The notes under the pieces: generated by a model
Seen by the model: only the letters and a program-made list of their open reading frames with translations
Told to the model about the DNA's origin: nothing
Database searches by the model: none
DNA from: an uncultured Clostridia bacterium
Lineage (GTDB): Bacteria > Bacillota > Clostridia > Christensenellales > Borkfalkiaceae
NCBI GenBank assembly: GCA_947589085.1
Contig: CANPZD010000009.1
Location: forward strand, 1-39,019
DNA: 39,019 bases
Direction of reading: 5' to 3'
Translations under genes and position numbers: made by a program
In this document: positions 417 through 21,996 of the stretch, piece after piece
How the letters are laid out: each line of letters starts with the position of its first letter
How positions within the stretch are numbered: the stretch's first letter is position 1

Positions 417-440
417 TCTCAAAAAGTATACTTTTTGAGA
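417..440. repeat. Left palindrome of module copy 1
   Basis: A perfect 24-bp palindrome centred on GTATAC, with core CAAAAAGTATACTTTTTG. The same core returns at 525-542 and in module copy 2 (21852-21881 and 21959-21984). No T-run follows it on either strand, so it does not look like a terminator. It could be an operator or an inversion site. Confidence 0.85.
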
Positions 441-448
441 AAAACCTC

Positions 449-477
449 TTGACAGCAAAATGAGCCTGTGATATACT
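449..477 (+). promoter_or_regulatory. Sigma-A promoter inside module copy 1
   Basis: TTGACA at 449-454 and TATACT at 472-477 are separated by exactly 17 nt. Transcription would start near 484, just before the small hairpin at 485-497, and head away from the lipoprotein gene at 26. No protein-coding gene lies downstream on this strand before the converging hpt gene. Confidence 0.8.
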
Positions 478-483
478 CAAAAA

Positions 484-558
484 CGTGCTGGGAGCACAAA
501 ATTGCCACCCGATTTCCGCTCTCTCAAAAAGTATACTTTTTGGGAGAGTTTATTTTTT
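484..558 (+). ncRNA. Putative ~75-nt small RNA, module copy 1
   Basis: The predicted transcript runs from the 449-477 promoter to an intrinsic terminator. It starts with a hairpin (485-497, stem GTGC/GCAC around a TGGGA loop), followed by an unstructured-looking middle (498-518). It ends in a stem of about 15 bp (519-548, centred on GTATAC) followed by TTTATTTTTT (549-558). The second copy at 21922-21996 has the same order; between the start of the promoter block and the end of the 5' hairpin the two agree at 49 of 54 positions, while the middle differs. I do not recognise a known RNA family. Alternatively this is only the 'off' state of an invertible promoter. Confidence 0.5.
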
Positions 559-2965: not shown

Positions 2966-3042
<77 letters not shown>

Positions 3043-3045
3043 TAT

Positions 3046-3122
3046 GGCGATGTAGCTTAGTTGGTTAGAGCGATCGGTTCATACCCGATAGGTCAGCGGT
3101 TCGACTCCACTCATCGCTACCA
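3046..3122 (+). tRNA. Elongator tRNA-Met (CAU)
   Basis: A 77-nt cloverleaf with encoded CCA, a G1-U72 wobble and the anticodon loop TTCATAC. It closely follows the Bacillus elongator tRNA-Met pattern, which argues against the lysidine-modified tRNA-Ile (also CAU). It starts 3 nt after the initiator tRNA. Confidence 0.92.
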
Positions 3123-3185
3123 CGATTTCTTTCGGCTTTGCCGTATTCATAATCCGGCTCCGCCTGCGCGCGAGTTGCTTTATAT

Positions 3186-3260
3186 GGCCCGTTGGTCAAG
3201 AGGTTAAGACATCACCCTTTCACGGTGGTATCGTGGGTTCGATTCCCGCACGGGTCACCA
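3186..3260 (+). tRNA. tRNA-Glu (UUC)
   Basis: A 75-nt cloverleaf with encoded CCA and anticodon TTC in the loop CTTTCAC. It is very close to Bacillus tRNA-Glu. It shares the 2903 promoter and the 3268 terminator with the two Met tRNAs. Confidence 0.95.
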
Positions 3261-17523: not shown

Positions 17524-20500
17524 TCAGGTTGCGGGTACCACTCTTCTGAAGTAGTTGGCCGTATTCTCCGAATTCGAAACAAGCAATTCGGCAGCCTTCG
17601 CAGCATCTTTGAGATCGACCGAAACCGCGGTGCCCGTTGTAGCGGTTGCACTCGTCGCGACGACCCAATTTGCCGTCTGCGCGAACGTAACGCTCGTAAG
17701 ACCCGTGCAGCCCTTGAACGCCGTCACGCTGATCGTATCCACGGAAGCCGGGATCTGGATCGCGGTAAGCGACGTGCAGTTCTCGAACGCCGTGCCTTCG
17801 ATCTTCGTGAGTGCGGCGCCGAGCTTCAGCGTTGCGAGGTTCGTGCAGCCGGAGAACGCGCCGGAGCCGATCGAAGTGACCTTATCCGGGATCGTGACCT
17901 CCGTAATTGCCGCGCAGTTCTTGAACGCGCTGGCGTTGATCGCGGTGAGATTTGCGGGAAGCGTGACGTTGCCCAGCGTCTTGCAGCCGCAGAATGCAGA
18001 GCTTCCGATCGTCATGACGGTCGAAGGGATCGTAACGCTTGTAAGTTCCGCAAATCCGTAGCACCAGTAATTTCCGATGGCCGTGGTGCCCGCTGCGAAC
18101 GTGACGTTCTTGACATGCGTGGATCCGGTGAACACACTCGTGCTGCTGATCGTAACCTTCGGCGAGTAGATGATCGTTTCGAGCGCAGTGCAGTTTCTGA
18201 ACGCCATCGTACTGACGCTGCCCGCCATATTCTTGAAATCGATCTTGGTGAGGCCGGAGCAGCCGCTGAACGCCGACGTGCCGATCGACGTCATCGTATC
18301 GGGGAAGGCGATCTCTTGCAGCGAAGTGCAGTTGCTGAACGCAGAGCTTCCGACCGACGTCGTTTTGCCCAAATCCACCGTGGCGAGGTTCGTGCAGCCC
18401 GAGAATAAGGAGGAGCCGATCGACGGCACAAGATCGGGGATCTTGACCGCGGTAAGCTGCGTGCATTTCTGGAACGCGGAGCTGCCGAGCGAGGTGAGCG
18501 CCGCGGGAAGCGTGATCGCTGTAAGGCCGGCGCCGCTGAATGCGGAGCCGCCGATCGAGGTGAGCGTTGCGGGAAGCGTGACCGTTGTAAGGCCGGTGCA
18601 TCCGCTGAACGCGGAACTTCCGATCGACGTAAGTTTATCCATGTTGTTGACCGTTGTAAGGGCGGTGCAGCCGGAGAAGGTCGAAGCGGGAATTTCGGTG
18701 ATGCCTGCGGGCAGCGTGACCGTTTCGAGACCGGTGCAGCCGTAGAACAGGTTGGTGCCGAGGACCTTCGCCTTCAACGTGAAGGAGGTCAGCTTGACGC
18801 ACTCCGCAAAGGCATAGTTGCCGAGAATTCTCATTTCGCCCGAAGGAAGGGTGAGATTGTCGAGCGCGGAAAGTCCGCGGAACGCGTTCGCACCGATGCG
18901 CGTGACCGTATCCGGGATCACGACCTTCGTGACGTTGACGAAATTCTTCTTGTTCTTGTCGTAGAACGCGTCGGCCGCGACCTCCACGACGTCCCACTTG
19001 CCGACTTTGGCAGGGATCACGATCTCGGTGAGCTGCGAAAGATCTTCGGGAAGTTTGCTGAATCCCGTGACGATCGCGCCCGTGTATGCGTCGTTGACGA
19101 GGAACTTCAGGTTCGGCGTGCCGTTGTCTTCGCCCTGCTGAACGCGCTCGTACTTGCAGACCGAGCAGACGTCATCGACAAAGCTGTGCGCGTAATGCTC
19201 GGAAGCGACCGAGGTGTGGCAGGTAGCCATGTACCAGTGTCCGCTCTCGTCGCTGTATCTTTCGGTACCCCAGGTATGCGTGTGCTGATAGTTGCACTTG
19301 CTGCACTTGTAGGTGCTGGTGCTCAGCGAGTGCGCCGCGTAATCCTTCTTGAGGTCGCAGCCGCAGGTCGCCTTGTGCCAATGGCCGTTGGCGTCGGAAG
19401 TCCACGTATCCGCAAAGGTATGCGTGTGCAGATATTCGCAGACGGTGCAGTATCCGTCGAGATCGTACGTATGCGCCCCGGCGGGAGCTTCGAGCGCGCC
19501 GCACACCGTGCAGCGCAGCCAGTGCTGCTTTTCGGTCGCGCGCACCTTGTAGACGTGCTCGTGCACATCCAACTTGGTGAGCGTCGGCTCTCCCAGCTTG
19601 AAGAACTCCTCATAGGCGGCTTTCGAGTCGGAGAGCAGATCTGCGGTGAGCACGATCTTTTCGGTGCCGGAGGTGTAGACCCAGCCGTTGGGATCCGCAA
19701 ATTCGAGCGCGGTCATCGTGCCCTTGTATTTCCCGAAGAGCGCGCTGCCGATGGACTTCACGCTCGCGGGAATGCGCAGCGTGACGAGCGCCGGATATTG
19801 CGGGGTCTTTTCGACGCCGACCAGAAGTCCTGAGAACACGGATCCGCCGATCTTTTCAAGCCCTTCGGGCAGCTCAACGGAGGTGAGCAGCAGGTCTCCG
19901 AGGAAGGCTCCGGCGTTCAACGTCTTGAGATTGCTGCCCGCTTCGAACTCCACGCTCTGCAAGCTCGTGCAGTAGCGGAATGCGTAGGAATCGATCGTGA
20001 CGACGGACGCCGGGATCGAAAGCTCGACGAGCCGCGTCGATTCGAACGCGCTCTCTCCGATCGTTGTAAGGCTCTTGGAAAACTGGACCTTATAGAGATT
20101 TGTTGCCGAGTAGAACGCGCCTTTTGCGAGCGCGGTGAGCGTATCGGGAAGCGTGATCGTGGAAAGGTTGCTGAACGAGAACGCATAGTCTGCGATCGAG
20201 ACGACGCCGTTGCCGAGGTCGACCTCTTTCAGCCCCGTCATGTTGCGGAAGCTCATCGAGCCGATCTTCTTGACGCTGTCCGGCAGCGTAACTTGCGTGA
20301 TATTCGCAAATTTCTTTTTGTTATTATCGTTGAACGCATTGTTGCCGATCTCCACAACGGGCTTGCCGTTGAACCCGTAAGGGATCACAAGATGCGTGAG
20401 ACCCGCGGGAAGCGTATCGCCGTCGTATCCCGTGACGGAGTAGCTCGTCTTATCCGCAGAGATCTTATAGGAAAGATCTTCCGTATACAGCCAGTGACGG

Positions 20501-21786
20501 CCGCAGACGGAACAGACGTTGTCTACCGTCCAGGTGTGCGTTGCGCACTCGGGCTTATCCGCCTTTTCATAGCCGCACACGTCGCAATAGGCGTCGCCGC
20601 CGAATTCGTGCTGCGCCGTGAGATCTTTGTTCTCCACGCCGTCGTCCGGGCAGACGCCCCAGTGGTTCGTGTCGTCGTGCGCGTATGCCGAATAATTGTG
20701 CTCGTGCTTCCACACCTCTACCTTCGGAACGGCGTCGCCGATCTTCCACGTGATGGAGAACATGCCCTCGGACTGCACTTTGAGATCGTTCCCCGTGCCC
20801 GTCGGATAGTAGTTATCCGTCTTGAGGTTGTAGACCTTGAACGCGTCGGAAGGGGTAAGTTTGATCTCGCCGCGGAACGTTGCGCCGTCCGCCTGAAGCT
20901 CCATCTTCCGCATCTTATTGGGGCTTTCTTCCCAGTTGCTGCCCAAAGCCGCGATCTGGCCGATGATGTACATCTCATACTGCGTGGAAATATCCAAAGG
21001 ATCGAGATGCTCGACAAGGCGGTATTCGACCATGTTCGCCGTCGCGCCGCCATCCGGCTTCGTACGGATATAGAATTCGTACACGCCGTCGTGCCCCGCA
21101 AGCGGCGTAATGTTGCCGCTGCCCGCATCCTTGAAATCCTTGCTGCCGAGCGCAAGATTGCCGAATCCGAAATACCCGAGACCGTCGTCCCAGTCGAGAT
21201 CCTGCACAAGCTTGAATTCGTCGCCCGAATACAGCTTCAATTGGATCGAATACACCGTGTTGCCGTTGGAATCCAACTTCGTGAGCTCTTCGATCGGTTT
21301 CAGCTTGGAAAGCACGTCCCAGCCGACGCCGTTCAGATCGCCCGCGCCGCTGCCCGCAACGTACCACTTGCGCGTATCGAACGTGCCCTCGGGCGCCGTG
21401 CCCTCTTTTTCGCACACGATACATTTGCCGTCATTGCCGTAAATATGGCCGAAACGTTCTATGTAATCGTTGTCGACAGGGCACTCGTACCAGTGGTTCG
21501 TCGCGTCTGCCTGAAGCTGCGTGTACGCATGTACGTGCTCTACCGCCTCTTCATAGTCGCACACGGTACACTTGCCGTCTACCATCGTGTGCTCTTCGCG
21601 CGTACTTTCGTCCGCCGCTTCGTCCACAGGGCACTCCCTCCAGTGGTGCGTGCTGTTGTATGCCCATGCCGTATACTCGTGTACGTGCTTCTTCGGTTCG
21701 TTCTTGCAGGCAGCAAACACGCCGAATCCGAGACACAAACACAGAGCCGCTACGAGAACGAGCAAAAGTCTGGTTCTTTTTTTCAT
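17524..21786 (-). CDS. BspA-type leucine-rich-repeat surface lipoprotein with Cys/His repeat modules
   Basis: A 1420-residue lipoprotein: signal peptide with lipobox FAAC, lipidated at C27. Cys/His-rich repeats (H-x-W-x-x-C-P ... G-x-C-x-V-C-x-Y-E) occur at about 34-126, 361-432 and 741-880. Their CxxC and HxH spacing resembles zinc ribbons. Residues about 131-355 hold two beta-sandwich modules that recall SusE/SusF-type carbohydrate-binding domains. Two blocks of BspA-like (LRR_5) repeats at about 460-700 and 905-1400 carry the consensus L-x-x-I-x-x-x-A-F-x-x-C-x-x-L-x-x-V-x-L-P. BspA proteins mediate adhesion to host or microbial surfaces; a role in surface binding is inferred. The ATG has GGAGG upstream. 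A paralogue begins at 26, and both carry the palindromic promoter module upstream. No clear promoter reading into this gene is visible between it and the module. Confidence 0.93.
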   Translation of the reverse strand: MKKRTRLLLVLVAALCLCLGFGVFAACKNEPKKHVHEYTAWAYNSTHHWRECPVDEAADESTREEHTMVDGKCTVCDYEEAVEHVHAYTQLQADATNHWYECPVDNDYIERFGHIYGNDGKCIVCEKEGTAPEGTFDTRKWYVAGSGAGDLNGVGWDVLSKLKPIEELTKLDSNGNTVYSIQLKLYSGDEFKLVQDLDWDDGLGYFGFGNLALGSKDFKDAGSGNITPLAGHDGVYEFYIRTKPDGGATANMVEYRLVEHLDPLDISTQYEMYIIGQIAALGSNWEESPNKMRKMELQADGATFRGEIKLTPSDAFKVYNLKTDNYYPTGTGNDLKVQSEGMFSITWKIGDAVPKVEVWKHEHNYSAYAHDDTNHWGVCPDDGVENKDLTAQHEFGGDAYCDVCGYEKADKPECATHTWTVDNVCSVCGRHWLYTEDLSYKISADKTSYSVTGYDGDTLPAGLTHLVIPYGFNGKPVVEIGNNAFNDNNKKKFANITQVTLPDSVKKIGSMSFRNMTGLKEVDLGNGVVSIADYAFSFSNLSTITLPDTLTALAKGAFYSATNLYKVQFSKSLTTIGESAFESTRLVELSIPASVVTIDSYAFRYCTSLQSVEFEAGSNLKTLNAGAFLGDLLLTSVELPEGLEKIGGSVFSGLLVGVEKTPQYPALVTLRIPASVKSIGSALFGKYKGTMTALEFADPNGWVYTSGTEKIVLTADLLSDSKAAYEEFFKLGEPTLTKLDVHEHVYKVRATEKQHWLRCTVCGALEAPAGAHTYDLDGYCTVCEYLHTHTFADTWTSDANGHWHKATCGCDLKKDYAAHSLSTSTYKCSKCNYQHTHTWGTERYSDESGHWYMATCHTSVASEHYAHSFVDDVCSVCKYERVQQGEDNGTPNLKFLVNDAYTGAIVTGFSKLPEDLSQLTEIVIPAKVGKWDVVEVAADAFYDKNKKNFVNVTKVVIPDTVTRIGANAFRGLSALDNLTLPSGEMRILGNYAFAECVKLTSFTLKAKVLGTNLFYGCTGLETVTLPAGITEIPASTFSGCTALTTVNNMDKLTSIGSSAFSGCTGLTTVTLPATLTSIGGSAFSGAGLTAITLPAALTSLGSSAFQKCTQLTAVKIPDLVPSIGSSLFSGCTNLATVDLGKTTSVGSSAFSNCTSLQEIAFPDTMTSIGTSAFSGCSGLTKIDFKNMAGSVSTMAFRNCTALETIIYSPKVTISSTSVFTGSTHVKNVTFAAGTTAIGNYWCYGFAELTSVTIPSTVMTIGSSAFCGCKTLGNVTLPANLTAINASAFKNCAAITEVTIPDKVTSIGSGAFSGCTNLATLKLGAALTKIEGTAFENCTSLTAIQIPASVDTISVTAFKGCTGLTSVTFAQTANWVVATSATATTGTAVSVDLKDAAKAAELLVSNSENTANYFRRVVPAT

Positions 21787-21851: not shown

Positions 21852-21881
21852 TTCTCTCAAAAGGTATACTTTTTGAGAGAA
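21852..21881. repeat. Left palindrome of module copy 2
   Basis: A 30-bp palindrome, perfect except one G-T pair, centred on GTATAC with arms TTCTCTCAAAA. It lies 66 bp upstream of the lipoprotein start codon and matches the palindrome at 417-440. Confidence 0.85.
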
Positions 21882-21886
21882 ACCTC

Positions 21887-21915
21887 TTGACAGCAAAAAA
21901 AGGGTGTGATATACT
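21887..21915 (+). promoter_or_regulatory. Sigma-A promoter inside module copy 2
   Basis: TTGACA (21887-21892), a 17-nt spacer and TATACT (21910-21915). Like copy 1, it faces away from the lipoprotein gene. Confidence 0.8.
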
Positions 21916-21921
21916 CAAAAA

Positions 21922-21996
21922 CGTGCCGGGAGCACATTTTTGACCCCTGAAACCAACTCTCTCAAAAAGTATACTTTTTGGGAGTGTTTTTTCTTT
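21922..21996 (+). ncRNA. Putative ~75-nt small RNA, module copy 2
   Basis: The predicted RNA starts with the hairpin GTGC-CGGGA-GCAC (21923-21935). A middle part that differs from copy 1 follows, and it ends with the stem at 21959-21984 (core CAAAAAGTATACTTTTTG) and a TGTTTTTTCTTT tail. Spacing between all elements is the same as in copy 1. Confidence 0.5.

Follow-up and report, generated by a model that had tools for sequence, protein, structure and literature searches.

The question raised by this locus was what is specified by two nearly identical intergenic modules, each of which lies upstream of a lipoprotein gene and carries a promoter directed away from that gene. The modules are in a 39,019-nucleotide stretch of DNA (the window; contig C9) from the genome of an uncultured Clostridia bacterium (G000; 1.38 Mb in 28 contigs). 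The initial annotation interpreted them as a family of short RNAs made divergently from surface-protein genes. Our analyses point to a different answer: the modules are very probably invertible promoters (invertons) of surface-protein genes, and they are most likely flipped by a 199-aa serine recombinase.

Both copies of the module were found where the initial annotation had placed them, at positions 417-558 (element A) and 21852-21996 (element B), and its reading of their parts was accurate. The block from CCTCTT to GCACA is 54 bp long in each copy (445-498 and 21883-21936), and recomputing its identity gave the same value, 49 of 54 positions. Each element has two 26-bp palindromic sites with GTATAC cores. 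In element A, the gene-proximal site is at 416-441 (core 426-431) and the distal site, exactly 105 bp away, is at 521-546 (core 531-536). The corresponding sites in element B are at 21854-21879 (core 21864-21869) and 21959-21984 (core 21969-21974). Their role as recombination sites is inferred from inverted copies elsewhere, as described below. The predicted invertible inner segments (442-520 and 21880-21958, + strand) each contain, as judged by sequence, a sigma-A-type promoter with a 17-nt spacer (TTGACA-17-TATACT; 449-477 and 21887-21915, + strand). This is followed by a predicted leader with a 5' hairpin that has a GTGC/GCAC stem (GTGCTGGGAGCAC at 485-497 and GTGCCGGGAGCAC at 21923-21935, + strand). 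The distal palindrome is followed by a T-run at 549-558 in element A, outside the invertible segment, and by a T-rich run, TTTTTTCTTT, at 21987-21996 in element B (both + strand). Together with the distal site, each is predicted to form a terminator-like structure when the promoter faces away from the gene, the orientation that we refer to as OFF and that is found in both elements. The genes on the other side are on the complementary strand and start with MKKRT(K/R)LL, as had been noted. Gene A (MKKRTKLL...) is cut by the contig end and only its 5' end is present (complement of 1-26). Gene B (complement of 17524-21786) encodes a lipoprotein of 1420 aa whose leucine-rich repeats are of the BspA type (PF13306, E = 3.7e-153). 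A repeated intergenic sequence, TGTCATTCCGAACGAATGTGAGGAATCTCAG, and its variants are found near element A, at 210-390, and three tRNA genes (Met-Met-Glu) are at 2966-3260.

A search of the whole genome, which had been proposed as a check on the RNA family, revealed at least 11 copies of the module rather than the two visible in the window. Eight are complete (two on C9, three on C3, and one each on C7, C28, and C17) and three are cut at contig ends (C16, C25, and C4). As anticipated, the copies are linked to lipoprotein genes. The GTGC/GCAC hairpin, which had been expected to be conserved, was kept in seven of the eight complete copies and lost in the other (C3a). All eight have an inter-site spacing of exactly 105 bp and, by sequence, TTGACA-17-TATACT in the inner segment; that is, inverted repeats flank a promoter in every complete copy. 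There were 19 sites with at most one mismatch from CAAAAAGTATACTTTTTG in the 1.38 Mb, 16 in the eight complete elements and three in the half-elements, and no solo sites: all 19 were in complete copies or at contig ends. Two further matches carried three mismatches, which is the level of the reversed-pattern control (three matches at up to three mismatches and none at up to two). The abundance of sites in this genome is far beyond chance. By DNA similarity, the whole element appears to be nearly private to G000: three of 61 genomes matched, including G000 itself, and the other two did so over 22-40 bp only.

One of the complete copies, that on C17, was inverted. The loci on C28 and C17, which are apparently paralogous, have near-identical outer flanks on both sides and an inner segment that is reversed in one relative to the other. 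When the C17 sequence was inverted in silico between the core centres, it matched C28 without interruption through the element, and the two sequences diverged again further out. This restoration of identity indicates that the module is an invertible promoter and that the palindromes are its recombination sites.

The remaining comparisons were between genomes, and a flip of a single locus within one strain was not observed. Three loci in three other genomes (L179, compared with L225 and L196), all from MAGs with isolate names of the form 'Lapin-...' (presumably rabbit), had flanks that were 97.8-99.4% identical and a reversed inner segment. Scripted inversion left two mismatches in 210 bp in each comparison, in place of a long mismatched stretch. 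Orientation was also compared for 120 elements from 114 sources, leaving out loci with more than three pairs. Among the matches listed, this gave 321 alignable pairs of elements, 272 in the same orientation and 49 reversed; because the pairs share loci and descent, they are not independent and the counts are descriptive. Each MAG contig presents one consensus orientation, and contigs often break at elements. Both orientations thus exist between matching flanks, in the paralogous loci of one genome, in the three Lapin loci, and in the 49 reversed pairs. The outer half-sites kept their place beside the flanks, and the segment carried the inner half-sites along with it, which maps the exchange to the shared central stretch, inside the sites, that contains GTATAC.

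The orientation of the promoter relative to the adjacent gene gives each copy a predicted state. In G000, seven complete copies are OFF, including both in the window, and one (C17) is ON. Targets start with MKKRT(K/R)LL in seven of the eight cases, although for target A and the C7 target only eight residues are present before the contig end. BspA-type leucine-rich repeats (PF13306) were found in all five targets that could be scanned (those of the second C9 copy, C3a, C3b, C28, and C17). The C3c target is a lipoprotein of another type (168 aa), for which Pfam gave no match. In three other genomes (G127-G129), four elements were ON and 42 were OFF, with promoter direction confirmed in 46 of 46. 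These 46 come from 57 element regions, of which 11 were left out because contig ends near the element leave the target missing; one pair in G129 (19 counted, 18 shown) is outside the tally. Gene calls were based on an open reading frame with a hydrophobic N-terminus, and one of the ON calls (L280) depends on taking the lipoprotein ORF, and not one on the opposite side, as the target. The total for the four genomes is five ON and 49 OFF. We considered whether exactly one switch is ON per genome, as in mutual exclusion, and rejected this because G129 carries two strict ON copies (L300 and L310).

Most targets across the matches are proteins with signal peptides. At three recombinase-bearing loci (L150, L160, and L230), an ORF located 67 to 511 bp from the site pair is one that we take, from its N-terminal sequence, to be flagellin-like, and its position near GTATAC pairs and a serine recombinase suggests flagellar phase variation. 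Two observations concern ORFs of other kinds. A conserved ORF of approximately 324 aa (MFLDKLFKKKTE...) is behind an invertible promoter at L266 (G127), L282 (G128), and L301 (G129); it has no hydrophobic N-terminus, unlike the usual secreted targets. At L056 9569-9711 (C3, 24068-24210, in G000), the ORF that the OFF promoter faces, on the same strand, presumably resembles argininosuccinate synthase, and a shorter T-run is present between the two. The OFF orientation of this element might have a target of its own.

If the elements are inverted by site-specific recombination, then a recombinase should be encoded in the same genomes. G000 encodes a single small serine recombinase, of 199 aa (C5, 5282-5878), in which the resolvase catalytic domain spans residues 4-148 (PF00239, E = 2e-25). 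R8, S10, R68, and R71, which we take to be the catalytic residues, are invariant across six aligned members. The closest entry in the PDB is 2r0q (7.7e-28), deposited as 'Tn552 DNA-invertase bin3', which we assume to be Sin, and entries for Sin and gamma-delta resolvase rank ahead of the 'DNA-invertase' entries 4m6f and 3uj3 (about 2e-10).

Relatives of the G000 enzyme adjoin site pairs, or close variants of them, in four genomes of the same genus (G019, G011, G020, and G002). Among the matches listed, a serine recombinase of approximately 200 aa was present at 11 of 116 loci, and in all 11 its ORF was no more than about 330 bp from the first core of the pair. In a sample of 101 genomes from the genus, strict pairs were found in seven of the 21 genomes with the recombinase (E of 1e-20 or better) and in none of the 80 without it (Fisher, 6.8e-6; 3.3e-5 when G000 is omitted), and the control pattern matched in none of the 101. 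The strict pair was absent from the other 14 recombinase-bearing genomes, two of which (G002 and G011) have pairs of variant sites. Recombinase was found in nine of 11 genomes with site pairs; the search gave no match in the other two, G126 and G130. The link between enzyme and sites is one of association across genomes, as the two are not adjacent in G000: a search for GTATAC sites of the form used here was negative in the 16 kb around the G000 gene and in shorter stretches around seven other orphan copies of the recombinase. A strict search for 26-bp palindromes beside recombinases recovered no element and one unrelated repeat, and a looser search for inverted repeats recovered pairs beside several recombinases. 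We infer the identity of the enzyme, as we do the effect of inversion on gene expression and the termination of transcription.

Pairs of GTATAC sites are widespread. A pattern scan of a collection with one genome per species detected at least 116 stretches in 59 genomes, and the record titles of most stretches name Clostridia or one of its families. Eight of these genomes were counted in full and had 23, 12, 24, 16, 19, 4, 8, and 5 site pairs, a few of which are chance neighbours, and there were no matches to the control pattern in any of the eight. Viral contigs had 3, 11, and 8 stretches in three ranges of spacing, with mixed spacings. A segment of approximately 6 kb with one inverton was found in separate MAGs (98.6% identity between L179 and L196), and ORFs next to the inverton at L179, L196, and L225 resemble, in our reading, relaxase and MobC. 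The shared segment and these neighbours indicate that invertons may travel on mobile elements.

The distances between sites are clustered, near 95, 105, and 115 bp. Using one modal spacing per genome, with limits set at 94 and 124 bp, and leaving out two Spirochaetaceae genomes with arrays of sites, the 57 genomes among the matches listed had spacings of 94-95 bp (9 genomes), 99-100 bp (2), 102-105 bp (10), 113-118 bp (31), and 122-124 bp (5). The DNA helix has 10.5 bp per turn, and the clusters place most sites at separations close to 9, 10, or 11 turns. The spacings concentrate strongly at a 10.5-bp period, with an R of 0.60 among the matches listed (nominal p about 1e-9, for species that share descent and an allowed range that spans only three turns). 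For 72 genome-spacing combinations among the matches listed, R was 0.60-0.61 at periods of 10 to 10.7 bp and 0.56-0.57 at 9.5 or 11 bp. The strict pairs in the genus sample had spacings, derived from match lengths, of 104, 105, 113, 114, 115, 115, and 116 bp (87 to 123 bp allowed). Separately, copies of the palindrome AAAAGGTATACCTTTT form arrays in a Spirochaetaceae MAG, where each spacing is a multiple of 21 bp, or two helical turns (L153, L203, L206, L241, L243, and L245).

Solo sites, as deletion would leave behind, were also sought in G128. This genome had 42 matches to the short motif, 31 in 16 pairs (two of which share one site, and one of which, C17:29408, is likely a chance pair), eight that are no more than 70 bp from where a contig ends, and three inside contigs. 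The arms characteristic of the family were absent from the three contig-internal solo matches of G128, from an unpaired site in G083, and from another in G127; among the contig-end sites of G128, arms were examined in three of eight. Motif matches outnumber those explained by the counted pairs in G125, G126, G129, and the remainder of G127.

Several features of the OFF copies are those that gave the appearance of a small RNA. In all eight complete copies in G000, 8-11 of the 16 nucleotides past the distal site are T, compared to 2-6 of 16 in the gene-proximal flank. This asymmetry suggests that the site hairpin would act as a terminator only in the OFF orientation, and a terminated OFF RNA of approximately 75 nt is plausible in G000. 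The length given in the initial annotation, about 75 nt, fits the fixed geometry of the OFF copies, with assumed start and end points. Likewise, the description of short RNAs divergent from surface genes holds for the OFF state and fails for C17, where the promoter faces the lipoprotein gene. A distal terminator was considered as a general feature of the elements and was rejected. In the independent 95-bp family (G127-G129, n = 46), the distal side was more T-rich than the proximal side in 19 elements, equal in 5, and less T-rich in 22. A terminated OFF RNA is therefore not general.

These data bear on the proposal that the modules encode trans-acting RNAs, some 75 nt long, in which the 5' hairpin is conserved and the centre varies and pairs with targets. 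The OFF copies do have a promoter, a 5' hairpin, and a terminator-like end at the right distance. However, C17 and loci in other genomes have the inner segment the other way round, and the 95-bp family has no trend in T-runs. An Rfam scan of the window at the gathering score matched tRNAs only (three), which agrees with the statement in the initial annotation that no described RNA family could be recognized. A trans-acting role is without support in these data. The proposal also leaves the fixed 105-bp spacing and the linkage to a recombinase unexplained, and we consider it very improbable. The spacing could instead be accounted for if the palindromes were operators for a DNA-looping repressor, separated by an integral number of turns for looping rather than for recombination; the clustered spacings in other genomes and the similar GTATAC palindromes at other spacings on some phage contigs would be compatible with such a protein. 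There is little chance that this is correct, given that inversion maps inside the sites and that a recombinase is linked to them. The recombinase might conceivably have a repressor role in addition.

Reversed copies would also be produced by MITE-like miniature mobile elements inserted either way round. The modules are multicopy with palindromic ends, and one related element is on the shared, mobile-looking segment of L179, L196, and L225, but at matching places the flanks and outer half-sites run on unbroken whichever way the segment is oriented, the copies are upstream of surface genes, and their length is fixed. Insertion of this type is extremely improbable. Another alternative is that the modules are invertible promoters flipped by a recombinase other than the 199-aa enzyme, for example a tyrosine recombinase. 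G000 has four tyrosine recombinase matches and three further serine recombinase matches in open frames of over 500 aa, and in the available part of a gut inverton catalogue the enzyme tied to a large Clostridial group is a tyrosine recombinase (PMC11892184). Yet it is the small serine recombinase that adjoins the pair in all 11 loci that carry one among the matches listed and that co-occurs with pairs across the genus, and phmmer searches with the four G000 tyrosine enzymes as the only queries found no tyrosine recombinase neighbour at the 116 loci among the matches listed. We therefore think it unlikely that another enzyme is responsible, and favor invertible promoters flipped by the 199-aa serine recombinase.

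Clostridial invertons are already known, and the elements described here can be compared to several systems. The candidate enzyme is a serine recombinase, unlike RecV of Clostridioides difficile, which is a tyrosine recombinase. The elements resemble the switches of C. difficile as instances of Clostridial phase variation by inversion; in the portion of the literature available, a cell-wall protein and flagella of that organism phase-vary in this way (PMC5903667). They also resemble gut invertons catalogued by PhaseFinder-type analysis in that the promoters near surface genes are flanked by inverted repeats; the portion of that catalogue considered here includes Clostridial groups, and the strongest link it names is that from a Clostridial group to a tyrosine recombinase (PMC11892184). 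A literature search for GTATAC together with inversion found no account of this class of site (the match concerned Salmonella fimbriae, and supplementary motifs were outside the search). The hix sites have a 12-2-12 layout. Compared to Hin and Gin, the inverted segment here is short, about 0.1 kb, and the G000 enzyme is nearer to resolvase entries than to 4m6f and 3uj3. The small serine recombinase and the inverted orientation of the sites are shared with Hin and Gin, as far as the excerpted account describes them, and control of Hin is exerted through a Fis-bound enhancer (PMC3798978).

Of the known systems, the closest is Mpi of Bacteroides fragilis, in which, according to the available part of its description, one master serine invertase acts on 13 invertible regions (PMC4747536). 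As in that description, a single small serine recombinase gene in G000 is accompanied by numerous dispersed, apparently invertible promoters for surface features. Capsule loci are prominent among the Mpi targets in the same account, whereas the targets here are leucine-rich repeat lipoproteins together with secreted proteins of other kinds and flagellin-like ORFs. Unlike Mpi, the hosts of GTATAC pairs are mostly Clostridia, the sites are GTATAC palindromes with short, clustered spacings, and the enzyme falls outside the Mpi protein family (NF009949 in NCBIfam; 31.9 bits, far under the cut-off of 272). Taken together, these comparisons indicate phase variation that is of the Mpi type in its working, in a short, helically phased Clostridial form that is distinct from Mpi in site, spacing, and host range.

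We propose the following model. Two inverted 26-bp sites, 105 bp (about ten helical turns) apart, flank a sigma-A promoter and leader hairpin. The recombinase encoded on C5 would bind both sites as dimers, and a short loop would bring the sites together. Strand exchange in the symmetric shared centre would then invert the inner segment. In the ON state, the promoter would face the surface-protein gene, and transcription would pass the gene-proximal site, which lacks a T-run on its far side. In the OFF state, the promoter would face away, and the hairpin of the distal site and the T-run would end transcription after about 75 nt. A symmetric core could in principle be ligated both ways, so that deletion would also be possible; on our hypothesis, the short, phased loop could fold only as a U, which would account for symmetry and spacing alike. 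We suggest tentatively, and with considerable doubt, that the elements represent a widespread, mainly Clostridial, enhancer-less and resolvase-like switch with sites about 9, 10, or 11 turns apart, in which a U-only loop forces inversion and forbids deletion. The clustered spacing and symmetric core raise the testable question of how inversion is chosen over deletion.

Under this model, what appeared to be a small-RNA family becomes a readable switchboard. Most likely, single cells of this gut bacterium switch surface proteins ON and OFF by promoter flipping. With at least 11 switches, and seven of eight visible targets in one lipoprotein family, a population would be expected to contain cells in mixed surface states. 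In five of the eight genomes counted there are 12 to 24 site pairs. Since orientation can be scored from DNA reads, the surface-protein states of uncultured gut bacteria should be measurable in existing metagenomes.
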